A stretch of 64,000 nucleotides of DNA from Verrucomicrobiia bacterium (GTDB lineage: Bacteria; Verrucomicrobiota; Verrucomicrobiia; Verrucomicrobiales; Akkermansiaceae), in NCBI GenBank assembly GCA_030430455.1, contig JAUIJB010000004.1, forward strand, positions 1 through 64,000. Reading direction: 5' to 3'. The notes beneath the pieces are model-generated. The model made no database searches. It saw only the letters and a program-made list of their open reading frames with translations, and had not been told where the DNA came from. Position numbers and translations under genes: made by a program. Position 1 is the stretch's first letter, and each line of letters begins with the position of its first letter. This document shows positions 8,559 through 15,925 of this stretch, piece by piece.

Positions 8559-9383
8559 TCAGAGCTCGGTGTCTGCCAGCAATTCGCGGAGGTCGGGGTT
8601 CTCGAGGACGCGGTCGAGGCGCGGGTCGCGGAGGATCTCGGAGTAGCGGCCCTGTGCGGCGAGGCGGCGCAGCCCCGGGTCGCCGAGGACCAGCGCGCGG
8701 ACCTCGTCCTCCTCCATCACCGGGATCGCCTTGGGTGGCTCGCTGTCACCGAGCGCGAGGAGCTTGGCCAGGTTGACCCGGGCCCGGTCGCTGAGCGGGT
8801 CGACCGCCTCGAACCACTCGGCGGGGATCGATTGCTCGATGCGGTCCTTGAGCTTGGCGAGGAAGGCGGCGCGGTCGGGGACGGGTTGGTCGTCGATGCT
8901 CGAGGCGAAGGCCTTCACTTCGGCGATCGAGCCGAAGTGGCGCAGCAGGGTGGCGCCGGAGAACCACAGCAGGGCGGTCGGGATGAGGCTGAGGAGCAGG
9001 GTGGCCGCCCAGCGTGCCGGCGAGCGACGGTTCTTCTCGGCGCTCTCCTCGTCCGGGCTGCCCAGCGGGCGGACCAGGAAACGGCCGATGGCGCGGAGCA
9101 GGAAGAAGGCCAGCAGGAAGACAACGGCCGGGACCACGATCGACGGCCAGCGGGCCTCGCTGCCGAGGATCTCGTGGGCGAGCGCGGGGGTGTGGCGCCA
9201 GGCCAGGAAGGCGAGGAATCCGGCGAGGCAGAGAACCAGGGTACCCCACAGGATCCGCAACAGCCCGCGCAGCACCGCAAGACTCGCGATGGCGCCGAAG
9301 ACCAGCAGCGCGGCGGTGCCGAGGCTGATGTCCGGGATGCTCTCGAGGTTCAGGGCGAGCGGGCTCATGGGGTCGGGCGGCAA
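8559..9383 (-). CDS. Four-helix membrane protein, unknown (CvpA-like?)
   Basis: This protein of about 274 residues has four hydrophobic segments in its N-terminal half (about 23-40, 43-62, 81-102 and 130-152), then a soluble C-terminal region. The tail repeats a short pattern (DPGLRR, DPRLDRV, NPDLREL), reminiscent of short helical repeats of the STI1 kind. The layout recalls CvpA-family proteins, but I cannot confirm it. A second in-frame ATG at 9368 is an alternative start. It precedes gatB on the same strand with a 69-bp gap. Confidence 0.65.
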   Translation of the reverse strand: MPPDPMSPLALNLESIPDISLGTAALLVFGAIASLAVLRGLLRILWGTLVLCLAGFLAFLAWRHTPALAHEILGSEARWPSIVVPAVVFLLAFFLLRAIGRFLVRPLGSPDEESAEKNRRSPARWAATLLLSLIPTALLWFSGATLLRHFGSIAEVKAFASSIDDQPVPDRAAFLAKLKDRIEQSIPAEWFEAVDPLSDRARVNLAKLLALGDSEPPKAIPVMEEDEVRALVLGDPGLRRLAAQGRYSEILRDPRLDRVLENPDLRELLADTEL

Positions 9384-9452
9384 GGCCGCCGGGGCCGCGA
9401 GCGTGAGGCATCCGCCGGTCGAGGCAAGCCGCCATGGCGCCCGACCGTGCGC

Positions 9453-10124
9453 TCAGTTCTTGTCCTTGCCGCCGAGCGAGCGCAGCGAGCGGACCAGGCC
9501 GTCGTAGAGGCCGAGTGCCTTGCGCGGGTGGTTCTCGCGGGCGGTCACCATCAGCGCGCGGCAGCCCTGGCGGCTGACGGCCTTGTGGTGGCGGGTTCCC
9601 GGGGCGGCGCGCATGTAGTCGCCGGGCCCCAGCGTGCGGCCCTCGGTCTCGAGGTCGCCGCGGATCAGGAAGACCTCCTCCATGCCCTTGTGGGCGTGGG
9701 GAAAGAAAACCCCGCCGGGGTCGGCCTCGAGCAGCACCAGGGTGTGGCCGCTTTCCTCCAGGTCGGAGAGCACCTTGAGGCGGACCTTGCCGCCGGGGAG
9801 GGGGGTCCACTCGCCCTCGTCCTCGCCCATGAAGAAGTAGCCGCCCTGCTTTTCCGCCTGCTCGGCTTCCACCTGGGCGTCGACCTTGGCCATGATCGAG
9901 TCCTTCAGCTCGGCCGGCGGCTCGATCGGCGGAAAGCTCGCCGCGGTCAGCGCGGCGGTGGCCTCGTCGAAGCCGAGCGCCGCGCGGGCGAGCTGGCCGA
10001 AGGGGCAGTCGTCGCAGTGCTCCATGCCGGCGGCATCCGCGCCGTCGAGAGCCTCGAGGCTCGTCAGCGCGGCGAACTCCGCGGCGAGGTCGCGGGGGCC
10101 GGGGTTGGAGGATGCTTCGGTCAT
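9453..10124 (-). CDS. ChrR-like anti-sigma factor with cupin domain
   Basis: This 223-residue protein should hold the partner ECF sigma factor inactive until a signal is sensed. It has an N-terminal helical region with a Cys pair in EHCDDC (about residues 35-40), where ChrR-type factors carry a zinc site; the spacing is not the standard H-x3-C-x2-C. The C-terminal half is a cupin with metal ligands in FPHAHKGMEEVFLIRG and GTRHHK. The start ATG overlaps the sigma gene stop by 4 bp (ATGA), so the two are translationally coupled. In ChrR, the cupin senses singlet oxygen or related oxidants; the signal here is unknown. Confidence 0.85.
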   Translation of the reverse strand: MTEASSNPGPRDLAAEFAALTSLEALDGADAAGMEHCDDCPFGQLARAALGFDEATAALTAASFPPIEPPAELKDSIMAKVDAQVEAEQAEKQGGYFFMGEDEGEWTPLPGGKVRLKVLSDLEESGHTLVLLEADPGGVFFPHAHKGMEEVFLIRGDLETEGRTLGPGDYMRAAPGTRHHKAVSRQGCRALMVTARENHPRKALGLYDGLVRSLRSLGGKDKN

Positions 10125-10687
10125 GGCACGTCTTGGGCGAGGTCGGTCACCACAGAACGAACGCGCTCCATGGCTCTTCGGATGCGTGATTTCACCGTTC
10201 CCAGCGGTTCGTGCAGGTGCTCGGCGATCTGGGATTGGGACATTCCTCGGTAGAATGCAAGCTCGAGGGCGATGCGCTGGTCGTCCGGCAGGTCCGCCAG
10301 CGCCCGGCGGACCCTCGCGGCGGCCTCCTTGGAAATCAACCGTCCGACCGGGTCCTTCGGGCTGCTTTCGTGCGAGGGCTCGTCGCGCAGCCGCTCGCGG
10401 CCGGCGTCTTGGCGCTGGCGCTTGCGCAGGTGGTCGATGGCGAGGTTGCGCGTCACCTGGATGATCCAGGTGGTCGCCTTGCCGAGCTTCGGGTCGTAGC
10501 GGTCGGCCTTGTTCCAGATGGCGAGGAAGGCCTCCTGGAGGATCTCCTGGGCCTCGGCATGGTTGCGGGTCACGCCGTAGGCGATGCCGAACAGCGAGGC
10601 GCTGAACCGGTCGTAGAGGGTCGAGAACGACTCCCGGGAACCACCGGCAATGGCGCTGAGTAGGTCCTCGGGGCTGGCTTCGCTCAT
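10121..10687 (-). CDS. ECF-family RNA polymerase sigma factor
   Basis: This 188-residue protein has region 2 (YGVTRNHAEAQEILQEAF, about 37-54, with the DNA-melting stretch following) and region 4 with a helix-turn-helix (MSQSQIAEHLHEPLGTVKSR). It lacks regions 1 and 3, as expected of extracytoplasmic-function sigma factors. The overlapping downstream gene is its cupin anti-sigma, the arrangement seen in SigK/ChrR-type pairs. Likely targets include its own promoter and possibly the nearby FadL, DUF4331 and TPR genes, which is inference from proximity. Confidence 0.93.
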   Translation of the reverse strand: MSEASPEDLLSAIAGGSRESFSTLYDRFSASLFGIAYGVTRNHAEAQEILQEAFLAIWNKADRYDPKLGKATTWIIQVTRNLAIDHLRKRQRQDAGRERLRDEPSHESSPKDPVGRLISKEAAARVRRALADLPDDQRIALELAFYRGMSQSQIAEHLHEPLGTVKSRIRRAMERVRSVVTDLAQDVP

Positions 10688-11155
10688 CTTGGGGGACGCG
10701 TGCGAAGCTGCCCGCGCTGTCCATGGACCGCCAACCTTTTTTGTGCATCCGACCGGAGCCCCGCGGCGTTGCTACGGATGAAGGACTGAAATCCCTTCCC
10801 CGGTGGCCCCCGCGGAACTCAATCGTTCCTGGGGGGGCGGAGAACCGCGTCGGGCCATCGCAGGGGGAGGGAGATCCCTAGAAAATCTTCGCAACCCGTC
10901 GTTCGCCATGAACCTGATGGTGCCGCAATTCCTGCTCAAGCTGCGCTGCCGGCCGCCCGGCGGGCGACGTGGCCGCTGACTCTCTCCCCGGTGGACCGGA
11001 AGCCCGCCTCGGGCGGCGCGACCGGACCAAAAAACCCACCGCTGCGGCAGGTCTCCGTCGCGGGACCCTCCAGGTCCCGCCGGCGGGGTGCCTGCCGTGG
11101 CGGACCGCCGTCGCCAAGCGGGGGCTCGACAAGGGGAGGGCGCCGGTGAGAGGTC
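10688..11155. other. Gene-free divergent region with hairpins
   Basis: These 468 bp separate the sigma factor gene and the FadL-type gene, which diverge. I see no credible coding frame. A perfect hairpin GCGGGACC-CTCCA-GGTCCCGC lies at 11060-11080, and GC-rich short inverted repeats surround it. Promoters for both sides should lie here, but I cannot point to a convincing -10/-35 or ECF consensus. Confidence 0.5.
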
Positions 11156-12499
11156 ATGGGGGTGCCCCCGATGTCCCGCCTGCCCGCTTCCGTGAAGGCC
11201 CGCCCGGCGGCCATGATGATCTCGCTCCTCGCCCTCGTGCATGCGGAGGCCAACGGGGTGCTGCGCCATGGATTCGGCGCCCGCGACGCCGGCTCGGCCG
11301 GTGCGTTGGCCGGAACTTCCGGGGATGCCTTGGCGGCCCTCCAGACGAACCCGGCGGCGCTGGCTGGACTCGAAGGGGACGAGTGGACCTTCGCGCTGCG
11401 CGGTGGCCGGGTCGAGGGCGAGTTCACCCGCGCGGGGATCCGCAGCGACGGCGACGTGCTCGGAGGCTTCCCGGAGCTCGGGATTGCCTGGCGGGCGGGA
11501 AAGGCCACGACTTTCGGCATGTCGCTGGCGCCGATCGCAGCCGCGGCGACCGACTGGGTCTATGCCGACGCGCCGGGCGGCATCGGCGGGATCTCCTACG
11601 GCAACGCGCTGGCCCACTCGAGCGGTTTCCAGGCGCTGCGTGCCAATGCCGGCCTGGCCGTCGAGATCAACCCGGCCTGGTCCGTCGGTGCCAGTGTCGG
11701 CGCGGTCTACAGCCGGGTCGACTTCGACGCCCCGTTCATCTTCCAGAGCAACCCGGCACTCGCCGGCGCCAAGGTGAACCTCGATCTCGAGACCGATGGC
11801 TGGCAGCCGAGCGCACAGCTCGGGATGCTGTGGCGGCCGTCCGAGTCATTCCGCGTGGGCCTGCACTACCGCCCGCGGATCGACCTCGAACTCGACGGCA
11901 CTGCAGCGGTCGACTTCTCCGCCCAGCTCCCGCCGCTTGGTCTCGGCGGAACGCCGCCGCTGGCGAACTACGCCGCCACGACCCGCAATGCGCTGCCCGA
12001 CGTGATCGGCGCGGCGCTGGCCTGGCAGCCGACCGATCGACTGAGCGCCGGCCTGCGGGTCGACTGGATCGGCTGGGCGCGTGCCTTCGACGAGCTCGAG
12101 GTCGGGCTGGCGGGAGGTTCGAATCCGGCGATCAATGGTGCGATCGGCGCGAATGTCGCCGACCGCGTGCCGGTGCGCTGGAAGGACGTGTGGATGATCG
12201 CGGTCGGTGGCGAGTATCGGCTCAACGACTGCCTGACCCTGCGCGGCGGCTGGCGCTGGGGCGAGTCGCCGGTGGCGACCCCCTGGGTGACGCCGCTGAA
12301 CGGCTCGCTGCTCGAGCACGCGCTGACCTCCGGCCTGGGCTGGGAACGCGGCAATTGGCGGGTCGACCTCAGCTACGAGTACCAGTTCGGACCGGCGGCG
12401 AAGGTGCTCGCCAGCGGCTACCGGGCCGGCGAGTATGCCAACAGCAAGAGCGACTTCACGGCCCACGTGCTCGGGCTCGGGGTGACGCGGCGCTACTGA
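11156..12499 (+). CDS. FadL/TodX-family outer-membrane transport protein
   Basis: This 447-residue protein is predicted to be a beta-barrel that lets long-chain fatty acids or other hydrophobic compounds cross the outer membrane. An N-terminal signal peptide (cleavage about residue 32, after HAEA) precedes the family's NPAAL motif (in ALQTNPAALAGLE). Alternating hydrophobic strands run to a terminal aromatic residue (final Tyr), as barrel-insertion signals require. An in-frame ATG at 11171 is an alternative start. The gene ends by overlapping the convergent gene at 12493. Confidence 0.85.
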   Translation: MGVPPMSRLPASVKARPAAMMISLLALVHAEANGVLRHGFGARDAGSAGALAGTSGDALAALQTNPAALAGLEGDEWTFALRGGRVEGEFTRAGIRSDGDVLGGFPELGIAWRAGKATTFGMSLAPIAAAATDWVYADAPGGIGGISYGNALAHSSGFQALRANAGLAVEINPAWSVGASVGAVYSRVDFDAPFIFQSNPALAGAKVNLDLETDGWQPSAQLGMLWRPSESFRVGLHYRPRIDLELDGTAAVDFSAQLPPLGLGGTPPLANYAATTRNALPDVIGAALAWQPTDRLSAGLRVDWIGWARAFDELEVGLAGGSNPAINGAIGANVADRVPVRWKDVWMIAVGGEYRLNDCLTLRGGWRWGESPVATPWVTPLNGSLLEHALTSGLGWERGNWRVDLSYEYQFGPAAKVLASGYRAGEYANSKSDFTAHVLGLGVTRRY

Positions 12500-12921
12500 G
12501 TCCCCGGGGCGTCGGGCGGCTGTCGCGCGATGCCGGGAGCGTGGTCCGCCAGCAGCACCTGGATGGCCTCGACGTAGGCGAGTTGTTCCTCGTTGGCAGC
12601 GCCGCCTTCGGTGATTTGGTCGAGTTCGGCGACGAGTCCGAGGACCTCCTCGCGGATGTCCCCGGGAACCTTCGCCGCGCGGAACAGCTCGCTCCAATCG
12701 CCGCTGTCCATGCCGCGGAGCGATGCCGGCGGCGGCAACTCGACGGCGGGCTGTGCCCGCGGCCGCGGGCGCTCGACACGGAGCTCCGGGTCGCGCGGGT
12801 CGCGCGGGTCGATCGGCGTGGCGCCGTCGTCGCTGCGGTCCGAGGTCACCCAGAAGAGCGCCGCGGCCACGGCCACAAGGAGGCTGGCGGCGAGGTTGAG
12901 TCGGTTGGAGGGCTTCATCAT
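12493..12921 (-). CDS. Small membrane-anchored protein, unknown
   Basis: This protein of 142 residues has an N-terminal hydrophobic anchor or signal (about 9-26), a proline/arginine-rich linker (PIDPRDPRDPELRVERPRP) and an acidic helical C-terminal region. I recognise no family. Its 3' end overlaps the FadL-type gene by 7 bp in convergent orientation. The start is one of two consecutive ATG codons. A much longer open frame through this gene continues antisense to the DUF4331 gene and is not credible. Confidence 0.55.
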   Translation of the reverse strand: MMKPSNRLNLAASLLVAVAAALFWVTSDRSDDGATPIDPRDPRDPELRVERPRPRAQPAVELPPPASLRGMDSGDWSELFRAAKVPGDIREEVLGLVAELDQITEGGAANEEQLAYVEAIQVLLADHAPGIARQPPDAPGTQ

Positions 12922-13059
12922 CGGGGATACGTCGCGGAAATTGTTTCGGATTCCATGCATCCGAAGCCGGACGGCGCCCGTTGCCATCGGATGAAGTGCC
13001 GCGTGTGGCGGACCCCCGACACCCGTCGCGCACTCCGACCAAGCAACTCCAAGAGAACG

Positions 13060-14592
13060 ATGAAACACAATCCGATGCCCCTTGCGGCACCCCTTTTCCT
13101 GTTCGCGGCCTGCGCGGTCACCCCGGTGACGGCCTCGAGCCACAGCGACGCCCCGCTGATCAAGCAGGACCCCCAGGCCAACCTCACCGACGTCTATGCC
13201 TTTGTCGGCACGAAGTATGACGATGACGCGACCGAGGTTCTCAACGTGATCGTCAGCGTCCGTCCCTTCTCGGATCCCGGCGACGGCCTGATCTACGAGC
13301 GCTTCGCCGACGACGCACGCTACAGCATCCACCTCACCGATCCGGTCACCGGGCTGGAGACGATGCGCTACGACTTCGAATTCTCCGCGGTCGACGAAAA
13401 CGTCAAGAATCCCGACACGATCCTGTCCTACGGGCGTGGTGCGGAAGTCGGGCCGATCCAGGACATCGGCGACGCCCGCCAGAACTTCACCCAGAGCTAC
13501 GAGGTCACCAAGTCGGTCGTGACGCGGCCGGCCTTCCGCTTCAACAATCCCTTCTTCGCGGCGCGCTTCTTCGCCGCGCGGGCCCGCCCGGTCCTCGTCG
13601 AGGACGGCTTGCCCGTGCCGCCGCCGAATGTCGGCCCGCGGACGACCCCGGCCTACAACGGTCCGGACGGCCGGGCGGTCTCCGGGGCGGCCAGCCTCGC
13701 CGAGCTCGACGACCTCACCGCGCAGGGGATCGCCGAACTCTCGGACGGCACGGTCGTCTGGGCCGGTCCGCGCGAGGACGGCTTCTACGCCGATACCCCG
13801 GGGATCTTCGACTTCCTCGACCCTCGCATCATCGGCGGCGATAGCCCGGACGGGCTGGGCCAGTCCGGTGGGGGTATCGACGGCTTCATGGGCTTCAATG
13901 TGCTCAGCTTCGCGGTGCAGATCCCGCTCAGCCAGCTGGACCCGGTCGCCTACAACAACCCCTTGCTCGGCGCCCAGGAGGGGGTCGGGGTCTACGCCTC
14001 GGTCAGCCGTCCCCGCCTGACCCTCCGCCGCACCGGCCAGGGCGCGCGCAGCGCCGGCCCCTGGGTGCAGGTGAACCGCCTCGGCAACCCGCTCTTCAAC
14101 GAGGTCCTGGTGGCCCTGCGGGACAAGGACAACTACAACCAGTCCACCCCCGCGAGCGACGAGGACTATCGGACTTATGCCGAGAATCCCGAGGTGGCCT
14201 TCCTGATCAACGCGGTGCTGTTCGGGACCGATGGCAGCGGGCCGCTGGCAACCACCGGGCGAACCGACCTGGCCGCGATCTTCCTGCCCGACGTCATCCG
14301 GGTCGACCTCAACACCGGCCCGGTGCCGCTGCCGGGAGACGAGGCGTTCAGCCGCCTCAGCCTGCTGGGCGGTGACACGGCCGGCTGGCCCAACGGCCGC
14401 CGCCCCGGCGACGACGTGGTCGACATCGCGCTCTCGGCCGTGGCCAGCGGTCCGGGCTACGACCCGATCACCGTGGTGGGCGACAACGTCAATGCCAACG
14501 ACCAGCTCTACAACCGGGTGTTCCCGTACCTCGGAACGCCGCATTCCGGTCCTGCCGTCGACCAGCGCCAGGCACCCGTGGTTGCTGACTGA
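13060..14592 (+). CDS. DUF4331 family secreted protein
   Basis: This 510-residue protein has a signal peptide (about 1-25, cut after VTAS) followed at once by SSHSDAPLIKQDPQANLTD, the conserved opening of DUF4331 proteins. The rest matches the family's pattern of Asp-rich motifs, ending in a GYDPITVVGDNV segment. The molecular function of DUF4331 is not established. It is followed 43 bp later by a TPR protein, and an ECF sigma/ChrR pair lies upstream. This grouping suggests a regulated envelope stress or metal/lipid response, by inference. Confidence 0.88.
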   Translation: MKHNPMPLAAPLFLFAACAVTPVTASSHSDAPLIKQDPQANLTDVYAFVGTKYDDDATEVLNVIVSVRPFSDPGDGLIYERFADDARYSIHLTDPVTGLETMRYDFEFSAVDENVKNPDTILSYGRGAEVGPIQDIGDARQNFTQSYEVTKSVVTRPAFRFNNPFFAARFFAARARPVLVEDGLPVPPPNVGPRTTPAYNGPDGRAVSGAASLAELDDLTAQGIAELSDGTVVWAGPREDGFYADTPGIFDFLDPRIIGGDSPDGLGQSGGGIDGFMGFNVLSFAVQIPLSQLDPVAYNNPLLGAQEGVGVYASVSRPRLTLRRTGQGARSAGPWVQVNRLGNPLFNEVLVALRDKDNYNQSTPASDEDYRTYAENPEVAFLINAVLFGTDGSGPLATTGRTDLAAIFLPDVIRVDLNTGPVPLPGDEAFSRLSLLGGDTAGWPNGRRPGDDVVDIALSAVASGPGYDPITVVGDNVNANDQLYNRVFPYLGTPHSGPAVDQRQAPVVAD

Positions 14593-14635
14593 GCAAGGAA
14601 CATCGGGCAGACCGATCACCTGAAGACACGAGACC

Positions 14636-15925
14636 ATGAAGACGAAGCACTGGTTGATGGTGTGGTTGCTGGGCATCTCCCCGCTCGCCGGGGAGGTGCC
14701 GAACCGCGCCGGGGGAATGGACGGGTTGCGTCGTGCCGCCGCGGCTCCGAATGCCGGGGCGGCGGACTGGGTGAGGCTCGGCGATGCGCTGATGCAGCGC
14801 TCGCGAGAGACCCAGGACCACGATTTCAGCGCCGCCCGCGAGGCCTACGAACGGGCCCTCGAGCACGACGAGGGGAACCTCGACGGCCTCGTCGGCATGG
14901 CCTGGGTGGGCAACTCGGAGCACGACTTCGCGGCTGGCGCCCAGTGGGCGGAGCGGGCGCTCGAGGCCGATCCGCGCTGCCTGCGCGCCCACGCGCTGCT
15001 GGGTGACGGGGCGATGGAGCTCGGCGAGTATGACCTCGCCCGCGACCACCTCCAGCAGGCGCTCGACCTCCGCACCGACCTGTCGACCCTGAGCCGGGCC
15101 GCCCACCTGCTGTGGCTGACCGGCGACCCCAACCGGGCCAAGGTCCTGATGGCGCGGGCCATCCGCGCCGGCGGAACGGCGCCCGAGCACGTCGCGTGGT
15201 GTCGGGCGGAGCTCGCCGGGATGCACTTCAAGACCGGTGCCATGCTGCCGGCGGAGCAGGAGGCCGAGCTCGCCCTCGAGCTTGCCCCGGAGAACCCGCG
15301 GGTCCTGGTGGCGGCGGCCCGCATCCGTGCCGCACAGGGTCGGGCAGCGGAAGCGGTGAAGTTGCTGGAAAGGTCACTCGCGGTGAGCACCACCCACGAG
15401 GCGCTGGAAGGACTGGTCCGCCTGCACCTTGCCGCCGGCGACGAGGCGACGGCGAAGACGCGGAGCGGCGAGTTGCTCCGCTTCCACGGCCACGGCCATC
15501 ACTCGCACGGCCACGGTCATTCCCACGGCCATTCCCATGGTCACTCGCACGGCGGGGGCAATGCCCAGCTGGCCGAGTTCATGGCCGACCGGGGGATCGA
15601 TCCCGGGCAGGCCCTGCACCTCGCGGAGCACGACTACGAGACCTATCCGAACATCCAGGTGGCCGATGCCGTGGCCTGGTGCGCCTACCAGGCCGGCGAC
15701 CTCGCGAAGGCGCGCCGGATGATCCGCCGGGCACTTCGGTGGCAGACCGCCGAGCCCGAGTTCCACTACCACGCCGGAGCCATCCTGGAGGCGTCGGGGG
15801 ACACCCGTGGGGCGATCCGCCACTGGAACCAGGCGCTGAGCCTGAACCCGCGCTTCGATCCCCTGATGGCCGACCGGGCACGCGAGGGAATCGAGCGGCT
15901 GCGGGCACTCGCCGGCGGACGCTGA
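14636..15925 (+). CDS. TPR protein with histidine-rich linker
   Basis: This 429-residue protein has a signal peptide (about 1-19) and two blocks of tetratricopeptide repeats (about 45-275 and 330-420). Between them lies a striking His/Gly/Ser run (about 282-306) of HGHSHG-type repeats, likely to bind Zn, Ni or Cu. TPR units such as DLARDHLQQALDLR and DLAKARRMIRRALRW are clear. It follows the DUF4331 gene by 43 bp and is probably co-transcribed, so the two secreted proteins may act together. The coding repeat at 15481-15556 could vary in length. Confidence 0.85.
   Translation: MKTKHWLMVWLLGISPLAGEVPNRAGGMDGLRRAAAAPNAGAADWVRLGDALMQRSRETQDHDFSAAREAYERALEHDEGNLDGLVGMAWVGNSEHDFAAGAQWAERALEADPRCLRAHALLGDGAMELGEYDLARDHLQQALDLRTDLSTLSRAAHLLWLTGDPNRAKVLMARAIRAGGTAPEHVAWCRAELAGMHFKTGAMLPAEQEAELALELAPENPRVLVAAARIRAAQGRAAEAVKLLERSLAVSTTHEALEGLVRLHLAAGDEATAKTRSGELLRFHGHGHHSHGHGHSHGHSHGHSHGGGNAQLAEFMADRGIDPGQALHLAEHDYETYPNIQVADAVAWCAYQAGDLAKARRMIRRALRWQTAEPEFHYHAGAILEASGDTRGAIRHWNQALSLNPRFDPLMADRAREGIERLRALAGGR
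15481..15556 (+). repeat. His-codon repeat within TPR gene
   Basis: A run of CAC/CAT GGC and CAC/CAT TCG/TCC codon pairs encodes about 12 histidines in 25 residues. It is in frame with the TPR gene and forms a linker between two TPR blocks. Confidence 0.85.

Follow-up and report, generated by a model that had tools for sequence, protein, structure and literature searches.

What regulates, and what is the function of, the genes at positions 9,453 to 15,925 of a 64,000-nucleotide stretch from a Verrucomicrobiia bacterium (Akkermansiaceae; assembly GCA_030430455.1, contig JAUIJB010000004.1, positions 1 to 64,000; hereafter the window)? There, genes for an extracytoplasmic function (ECF) sigma factor and a ChrR-like cupin anti-sigma factor lie beside genes for a FadL-type outer-membrane protein, an exported DUF4331 protein, and a tetratricopeptide repeat (TPR) protein with a His-rich stretch. 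Our best reading, to which we give a probability of roughly 0.6, is that the locus forms a small, dedicated sigma-controlled envelope regulon in which DUF4331 would carry a Cu/Ni-type metal. Sequence comparisons make it very likely that the window sigma factor controls the DUF4331-TPR pair, and they suggest, with appreciably less assurance, that it also controls fadL. A metal role for the DUF4331-TPR system, drawn from its neighbors and from the predicted DUF4331 N terminus, is the function that we favor.

DUF4331 and TPR genes recur together near ECF sigma factors

DUF4331 is rare in a phylum sample of 387 genomes, occurring in only 12 including the window genome, and a TPR gene adjoins it in all 12 fetched neighborhoods (11 other genomes). 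To these, we added the best 80 of at least 456 confirmed DUF4331 loci from a one-genome-per-species scan, ranked by DUF4331 similarity. These loci span Verrucomicrobiota, Planctomycetota, Armatimonadota, Acidobacteriota, Pseudomonadota, and further groups; they represent the family unevenly, and many of their contigs are cut. Removal of two duplicates (L034 and L075; L- and G-numbers denote compared loci and genomes) left 91 loci including the window, in which gene starts were picked by rule and neighbor families were named from Pfam matches of cluster representatives.

Within 5.5 kb of DUF4331, we found a TPR gene in 71 of the 91 loci and an ECF sigma gene in 38. An anti-sigma gene accompanied the sigma gene in 33 of these 38 loci, of ChrR type in 19 and of RskA type in 14, with neither type in the remaining five; ChrR without a sigma gene was seen in two loci. 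Genes for HupE/UreJ_2, DUF4198, or NicO proteins were present in 47 loci, and DUF4198 (13 loci) never occurred alongside TPR. A 5-kb limit with stricter scores gave similar counts (TPR, 69; sigma, 38; HupE, 28; DUF4198, 13; NicO, 5; PEP-CTERM-like, 16; FadL, 7), and for TPR, HupE, DUF4198, NicO, PEP-type, and FadL genes, the nearest copy lay beyond 5 kb in no locus. In 48 loci, DUF4331 was flanked by 5 kb or more on each side; of these, 39 had TPR, 24 had sigma, and 22 had sigma with anti-sigma. Sigma genes were also concentrated close to DUF4331. Excluding the window and duplicates, we counted 35 in 474 kb of flank at 0-3 kb (74/Mb) versus 4 in 398 kb at 6-10 kb (10/Mb), with a background of 334 region-2 matches in about 50.4 Mb of nine related genomes (6.6/Mb). 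These counts bear out, across phyla, the co-occurrence of sigma/anti-sigma pairs with DUF4331 and TPR genes that the original prediction, made from the window alone, had proposed as a check on its single regulon. Furthermore, TPR, sigma, and chrR genes are consecutive on one strand in five loci (L020, L022, L032, L033, and L035), as expected for one operon, and in L042 a TPR gene is followed by a sigma gene on the same strand shortly before the contig ends. Cultured relatives that carry the complete module include Roseibacillus persicicus (L034) and Luteolibacter marinus (L032). FadL, by comparison, is linked to DUF4331 solely in close relatives (7 of 91 loci).

A promoter-like motif lies upstream of DUF4331 and associated genes

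The motif GCATCCG-N15-CGTTG was first spotted by eye in upstream regions of 16 loci, the window among them. Exactly two exact copies exist in the window, at 10745 and 12957 on the plus strand (Table 1), the former oriented towards fadL and the latter 5' of DUF4331-TPR; L029 has a site placed like that at 10745. Across the 4.22-Mb genome, the form GCATCCG-N15-CGTT matched four times (backwards, 0): at the two window sites, once inside the sigma gene, and once on contig C25. Allowing two mismatches gave 19 matches in the window relative to a shuffled mean of 12.8, which is not unusual, as 19 was reached in 6 of 100 shuffles. The motif claim therefore rests on the exact matches and their places. 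A looser form, G[CA]ATCC[GA]-N14-16-CGTT, gave 39 matches over 1.46 Mb of loci; 21 lie within 600 bases 5' of a gene of the DUF4331 module in the right direction, and the other 18 lie elsewhere.

For a strict test, we took the 450 bases 5' of each sigma, DUF4331, FadL, or PEP-type gene and scored them for GCATCC[GA]-N15-CGTT. The derivation set contained matches in 11 of 40 regions and 9 of 16 loci (shuffled mean, 0.01; opposite strand, 5; backwards, 0). In the held-out set, whose loci are relatives and not independent draws, matches were found in 8 of 113 regions and 5 of 75 loci (L036 and L078, one each; L039, L059, and L061, two each), compared to a shuffled mean of 0.015 with a maximum of 1, 2 on the opposite strand, and 0 backwards. 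All loci with strict matches belong to Verrucomicrobiota, and the loci lacking one either use different or degenerate promoters or are not controlled in this way. The motif is found 5' of the sigma gene itself in L057, L059, and L061; in the latter two the DUF4331 operon is preceded by it as well, despite an RskA-type anti-sigma factor. The proposal of one regulon is thus supported by a motif 5' of DUF4331-TPR and directed to fadL, by the co-occurrence described above, and by sigma genes directly 3' of TPR in six relatives.

One further match falls within the 3'-terminal part of the sigma gene, just 5' of chrR, in the window (10160-10185, minus strand), L020 (6882), and L029 (7261). This match is probably a coding coincidence forced by conserved codons, although it may instead be an internal promoter. 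At both window sites (10745-10790 and 12957-12996), CGGATGAAG stands 3-4 bases past the -10-like CGTTG and forms an inverted repeat with GCATCCG; this repeat was not seen in L029 or L032.

The predicted N termini of DUF4331 and its partners suggest metal binding

The pattern X-X-H-x-D-[AS]-[PA] was present in 91 of 93 DUF4331 open reading frames (ORFs), representing every readable copy; one exception reads AADHADAP too near the ORF start for the pattern, and the other is a fragment. The X-X-H residues are SSH in 77 copies, ASH in 12, and ADH in 2. In 89 of the 91 copies, the residue just before them is A (84), S (3), or G (2), and position -3 is A/L/T/V/S/I/G in 87; such residues, here at an unvarying distance, typify a signal-peptidase site. 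Distant plasmid-borne DUF4331 proteins of Marinobacter, Jannaschia, Miltoncostaea, Lichenicola, and Streptomyces, five that we selected from 31 records, all read ASSHREAP at the same place. An N-terminal X-X-His constitutes an amino-terminal Cu and Ni (ATCUN) binding site (PMC7701195). We therefore predict that the mature DUF4331 N terminus is an ATCUN-type Cu/Ni site.

The neighbors of DUF4331 show a related feature. His occupies predicted mature position 1 in 28 of 29 HupE/UreJ_2 proteins by pattern (the L096 match is doubtful), in 13 of 13 DUF4198 proteins, and in 5 of 5 NicO proteins (three by pattern and two by eye); the HupE/UreJ_2 sequence of L090, which falls outside the pattern, is cut and reads SHDPGLS. 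In vitro, a DUF4198 protein binds Ni with a Kd of 18 nM, and the HupE-linked Ang-1 domain binds Cu at 74 nM and Ni at 220 nM (PMC12537917). Four of the five plasmid-borne DUF4331 genes have TPR and/or HupE/UreJ or nickel transporter genes within three genes downstream, with the Jannaschia gene having neither. Among the stresses named in the original prediction, the neighbors and N-terminal His patterns favor metal over lipid. The recurrent partners are metal proteins, and the singlet-oxygen or lipid reading is not supported.

The NicO-type nickel transporters beside DUF4331-TPR (L043, L051, L056, L058, and L065) begin HP(M/L)G past the predicted signal site. NicO would add another transporter family with an N-terminal His, one that does not appear in the consulted passages of PMC12537917.

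The metal binding that the original prediction suggested for the His-rich linker of the TPR protein fared differently. The stretch is real, with 12 His in 30 residues, but it is lineage specific, as only 8 of 72 TPR proteins contain at least 8 His in 30 residues, and it cannot be the general functional basis.

An AlphaFold2 model of DUF4331 had a pLDDT of 83 and a pTM of 0.87. A DUF4331 profile found nothing credible in the PDB (one match, E of 0.16), and Foldseek found no match at E <= 0.001 with the full model or residues 26-345. The best VIA-align 2 candidate, antibody domains with a Z of 6.3 over 123 residues, was discarded as within the usual background for such models.

The ChrR-like anti-sigma factor retains its cupin site and half of its zinc site

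The window sigma factor contains sigma-70 regions 2 and 4 and has a linked anti-sigma gene, consistent with an ECF sigma factor. When compared to solved structures, it scored 81.4 bits with Mycobacterium tuberculosis SigK (4nqw), 80.1 bits with Rhodobacter sphaeroides RpoE (2q1z), and 37.7 bits with CnrH, scores from which it cannot be assigned to ECF11. A profile of the ChrR-like protein and two orthologues matched ChrR (2z2s/2q1z) over positions 31-196, and the protein scored 33.6 bits against TIGR02451, below the cut-off of 124.5.

In ChrR, the zinc ligands of the zinc-binding anti-sigma (ZAS) domain are His6, His31, Cys35, and Cys38, and the cupin ligands are His141, His143, Glu147, and His177 (PMC6852236). 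The window protein, numbered +2, keeps all four cupin ligands (H143, H145, E149, and H179) and the ZAS cysteines C37 and C40, with P8 and G33 at the histidine positions. Either zinc or protein contacts can hold the ZAS helical bundle (PMC6852236), and therefore sigma binding may persist without the histidines. Across 21 ChrR-type proteins of the module, 9 lack any CxxC, 19 have the cupin H-x-H-x3-E, and those of L040, L085, and L095 have H-x3-C-x2-C. The odd zinc-motif spacing (EHCDDC) pointed out in the original prediction is thus real and lineage specific among these proteins.

We built a sigma tree of 55 sequences, consisting of 36 module sigma factors scoring at least 140 bits (weaker ones were excluded) and 19 of 20 fetched background ECF sigma factors from two genomes. 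In this tree, 28 module sequences and one background sequence formed a group of 29 (support 92/82), and ChrR- and RskA-partnered sequences were intermixed with weak support. A dedicated clade of single origin was considered and rejected: the six planctomycete RskA-type sigma factors, L040, and L031 fall outside the 29-member group, and because of these a single sigma origin is not established. The L031 sigma gene is roughly 7 kb away from DUF4331 and probably does not belong to the module. In the same-genus genome G319, a second FadL-ChrR-ECF cluster (L163, C1:5402000-5414000, about 5.41 Mb) lies far from the sole DUF4331 match at 3.51 Mb, and therefore FadL tracks the sigma pair there rather than DUF4331; the L163 sigma factor groups with that of L074 in the tree.

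A proposed mechanism and its alternatives

We propose that the ChrR-type cupin anti-sigma factor holds the ECF sigma factor until a signal frees it; we favor envelope metal status as this signal, which the intact cupin metal site might sense. Freed sigma factor would then transcribe DUF4331-TPR, and probably fadL, from promoters that we infer to be the GCATCCG-N15-CGTTG sites. Exported DUF4331 would start with (S/A)SH upon signal peptide cleavage, presenting a putative ATCUN-type Cu(II)/Ni(II) site, and DUF4331 and TPR may bind metal in the periplasm or at the surface. The metal may be passed to, or buffered for, permeases with a predicted mature N-terminal His (HupE/UreJ_2 and NicO). More broadly, DUF4331-TPR could be the center of a system for handling metal in the envelope, undescribed so far and shared by several phyla, with DUF4331 as an ATCUN-headed carrier having interchangeable N-terminal-His partners (HupE/UreJ_2, NicO, and DUF4198) and with its own ECF sigma factor and exchangeable ChrR- or RskA-type anti-sigma factors in Verrucomicrobiota, Planctomycetota, and some others, GCATCC-N16-CGTT being recognized at least in Verrucomicrobiota. 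We regard the odds of this wider proposal as about even.

Several observations weigh against a sigma-controlled metal regulon. Regarding control, 51 of the 91 loci have no sigma or anti-sigma gene within 5.5 kb (many contigs being cut), a sigma gene is missing from 24 of the 48 loci flanked by 5 kb on each side, and the strict motif is absent from 7 of 16 derivation and 70 of 75 held-out loci. The exact CGTTG form also occurs 33 times in 16 related genomes (0 to 4 each; backwards control, 3). Of these matches, 17 sit in 10 genomes without DUF4331, and a single one could be placed 5' of a DUF4331 operon (G237, C59:41102). Our confidence in sigma control of DUF4331-TPR is reduced because of this background; since any genome can be expected to hold a few such sites by chance, the location of a site is what counts. 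In addition, the promoter sharing expected in the original prediction holds for DUF4331 and fadL, and for sigma genes in some relatives, but no window copy of the motif is oriented towards the sigma gene.

Regarding metal, the window locus has no metal permease, and mapping of the window over its first 27 kb revealed no HupE gene; the sole HupE_UreJ_2 match of the genome is on contig C147, in a stretch (L164) lacking the motif. The DUF4331 cleavage site is predicted from a sequence pattern, and the model gave no helpful fold match, such that no DUF4331 fold is assigned. ATCUN sites favor Cu over Ni by about six orders (PMC7701195), which conflicts with a Ni-only reading. We also considered nickel-enzyme co-occurrence, with strong urease matches in 6 of 12 DUF4331 genomes, nickel superoxide dismutase (Ni-SOD) in 4, and either in 8, and did not use it; all four sampled DUF4331-negative genus mates (G178, G251, G277, and G327) have urease or Ni-SOD.

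Metal defense, in which the same proteins would sequester toxic Cu or Ni in the periplasm instead of feeding an uptake permease, is the alternative that survives best, and we consider it unlikely. Sigma control suits a stress response, and the preference of ATCUN sites for Cu(II) (PMC7701195) and the strongest binding of Ang-1 being to Cu (PMC12537917) fit such a role. However, the partners HupE/UreJ_2 and NicO are annotated as importer families, and no efflux family appeared among neighbor clusters found in at least 10 loci; a smaller cluster, of 8 loci, looks like ABC transporter ATPases.

We consider it improbable that the locus is an RpoE-ChrR (ECF11) type of regulon that responds to photo-oxidation or lipid peroxides, with the cupin sensing singlet oxygen or organic peroxides and FadL and the secreted proteins protecting or remodeling the envelope. 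Retention of all cupin ligands, including the Glu and His needed for the R. sphaeroides singlet-oxygen response (PMC6852236), would suit this explanation, as would the linkage of FadL in seven loci and beside the DUF4331-distant ECF-ChrR pair of G319. The singlet-oxygen sensing suggested in the original prediction is nevertheless not upheld, since half of the ZAS zinc ligands are gone, the sigma factor is no nearer RpoE than SigK, and in 14 of 91 loci the anti-sigma factor that accompanies this exported family is of RskA type. Moreover, no lipid or photolyase family was found among neighbor clusters in at least 10 loci (smaller clusters were partly identified). It is similarly improbable that DUF4331-TPR is a surface or secreted structural pair linked to permeases by shared envelope stress alone, as the adjoining PEP-CTERM-like genes and the missing fold match might suggest, given the invariant X-X-His at the predicted cleavage site and the three distinct metal-protein families that alternate as partners.

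Other features of the locus

The ECF sigma, ChrR cupin, FadL, DUF4331, and His-rich TPR genes of the original prediction are all present where it placed them, with Pfam scores above cut-offs (70.1 versus 24 bits for Sigma70_r2, 62.1 versus 27 for Cupin_7, 123.8 versus a gathering score of 29.7 for Toluene_X, and 273.1 versus 27 for PF14224, covering profile positions 1-421 of 421), but its gene list omitted a 143-residue minus-strand gene (Table 1), which had no Pfam or NCBIfam match at E 0.1. The sigma and chrR genes overlap by ATGA and are divergent from fadL. The window genome (90.9% complete) has one DUF4331 match and one Cupin_7 match.

Table 1. Features of the DUF4331 locus, with positions numbered from the first nucleotide of the window
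Feature	Position	Strand	Evidence
ChrR-type anti-sigma factor with cupin domain, 223 aa	9453..10124	-	Cupin_7, 62.1 bits
EHCDDC (ChrR residues 35-40)	10005..10022	-	CxxC kept, both ZAS histidines gone
ECF sigma factor, 188 aa	10121..10687	-	Sigma70_r2, 70.1 bits; r4_2, 52.8 bits
Promoter-like site GCATCCG-N15-CGTTG in sigma/fadL gap, 411 bases 5' of fadL start, oriented to fadL	10745..10771	+	Exact match
FadL/OmpP1-type outer-membrane protein	11156..12499	+	Toluene_X, 123.8 bits
143-aa protein with hydrophobic N-terminal stretch, without family	12493..12924	-	Pfam/NCBIfam blank
Promoter-like site GCATCCG-N15-CGTTG, 103 bases 5' of DUF4331 start	12957..12983	+	Exact match
DUF4331 exported protein, 510 aa	13060..14592	+	PF14224, 273.1 bits
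Ser-Ser-His codons just past predicted signal-peptidase site (A/SSHSDAP, cleavage at the slash), predicted ATCUN-type metal site	13135..13143	+	Pattern across homologues
Exported TPR protein, DUF4331 partner	14636..15925	+	Several TPR Pfam models
His-rich stretch within TPR protein	15486..15554	+	12 His in 30 residues

Short exported PEP-CTERM-like proteins are encoded beside DUF4331 in 16 of 91 loci (L033, L022, L020, L035, L036, L037, L039, and others), directly 5' of DUF4331 in all except L041; the first 27 kb of the window yielded no member of this family. Tandem DUF4331 genes lie between TPR and an ECF/RskA pair in L024 (G234, 8663-11622), and Streptomyces plasmid p65_CHABEC (L169) has a second DUF4331 gene about 5.6 kb downstream. 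Phages had no DUF4331 match. As for a wider regulon, nearly all of the 22 related-genome motif matches (of 33) whose surroundings we inspected lie within a frame of more than 150 codons. The window sites do as well, so this test does not discriminate, and we claim no further members.

Comparison with known systems

The exported DUF4331 family is widespread but has no assigned function; the present comparisons link it to a conserved TPR partner, to metal-binding families with experimental support, and probably to its own sigma switch. None of 5.39 million searched papers, a set without subscription papers and preprints, mentions DUF4331, PF14224, or IPR025566. Metal binding by mature DUF4331 is the deciding and directly testable point of our main claim. 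The exchange of ChrR- and RskA-type anti-sigma factors around similar targets also offers a natural experiment in how ECF switches change input while keeping output.

The Anglerase (Ang-1)-HupE/UreJ_2 and DUF4198 systems (PMC12537917) resemble the module in that their families recur as DUF4331 neighbors elsewhere and in that exported proteins carry a predicted N-terminal metal-binding His. In contrast, the DUF4331 His is at position 3 (ATCUN type) and not at position 1, and the window locus has no such permease; the main text of PMC12537917 mentions neither DUF4331 nor ATCUN. The SigK-RskA pair of M. tuberculosis is represented by the sigma factor narrowly nearest to that of the window among solved structures and by an RskA-type anti-sigma factor in 14 of 91 module loci, whereas the window anti-sigma factor is a cupin protein and the neighboring genes are different.

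RpoE-ChrR of R. sphaeroides (ECF11, singlet oxygen) shares with the window an ECF sigma gene followed by a gene for a ChrR-like cupin anti-sigma factor with all four cupin ligands. The window pair differs in lacking two of the four ZAS zinc ligands, in a sigma factor equally near SigK, and in its other neighbor genes. The ECF11 consensus, TGATC-N18-TAA, also differs from the candidate window motif, GCATCC-N16-CGTT. CnrYXH of Cupriavidus metallidurans is an ECF switch for Ni and Co that serves efflux and has a dedicated periplasmic sensor. Although CnrH scores just 37.7 bits against the window sigma factor, the two systems would, if our metal reading is right, have in common an ECF sigma factor that governs an envelope metal function.

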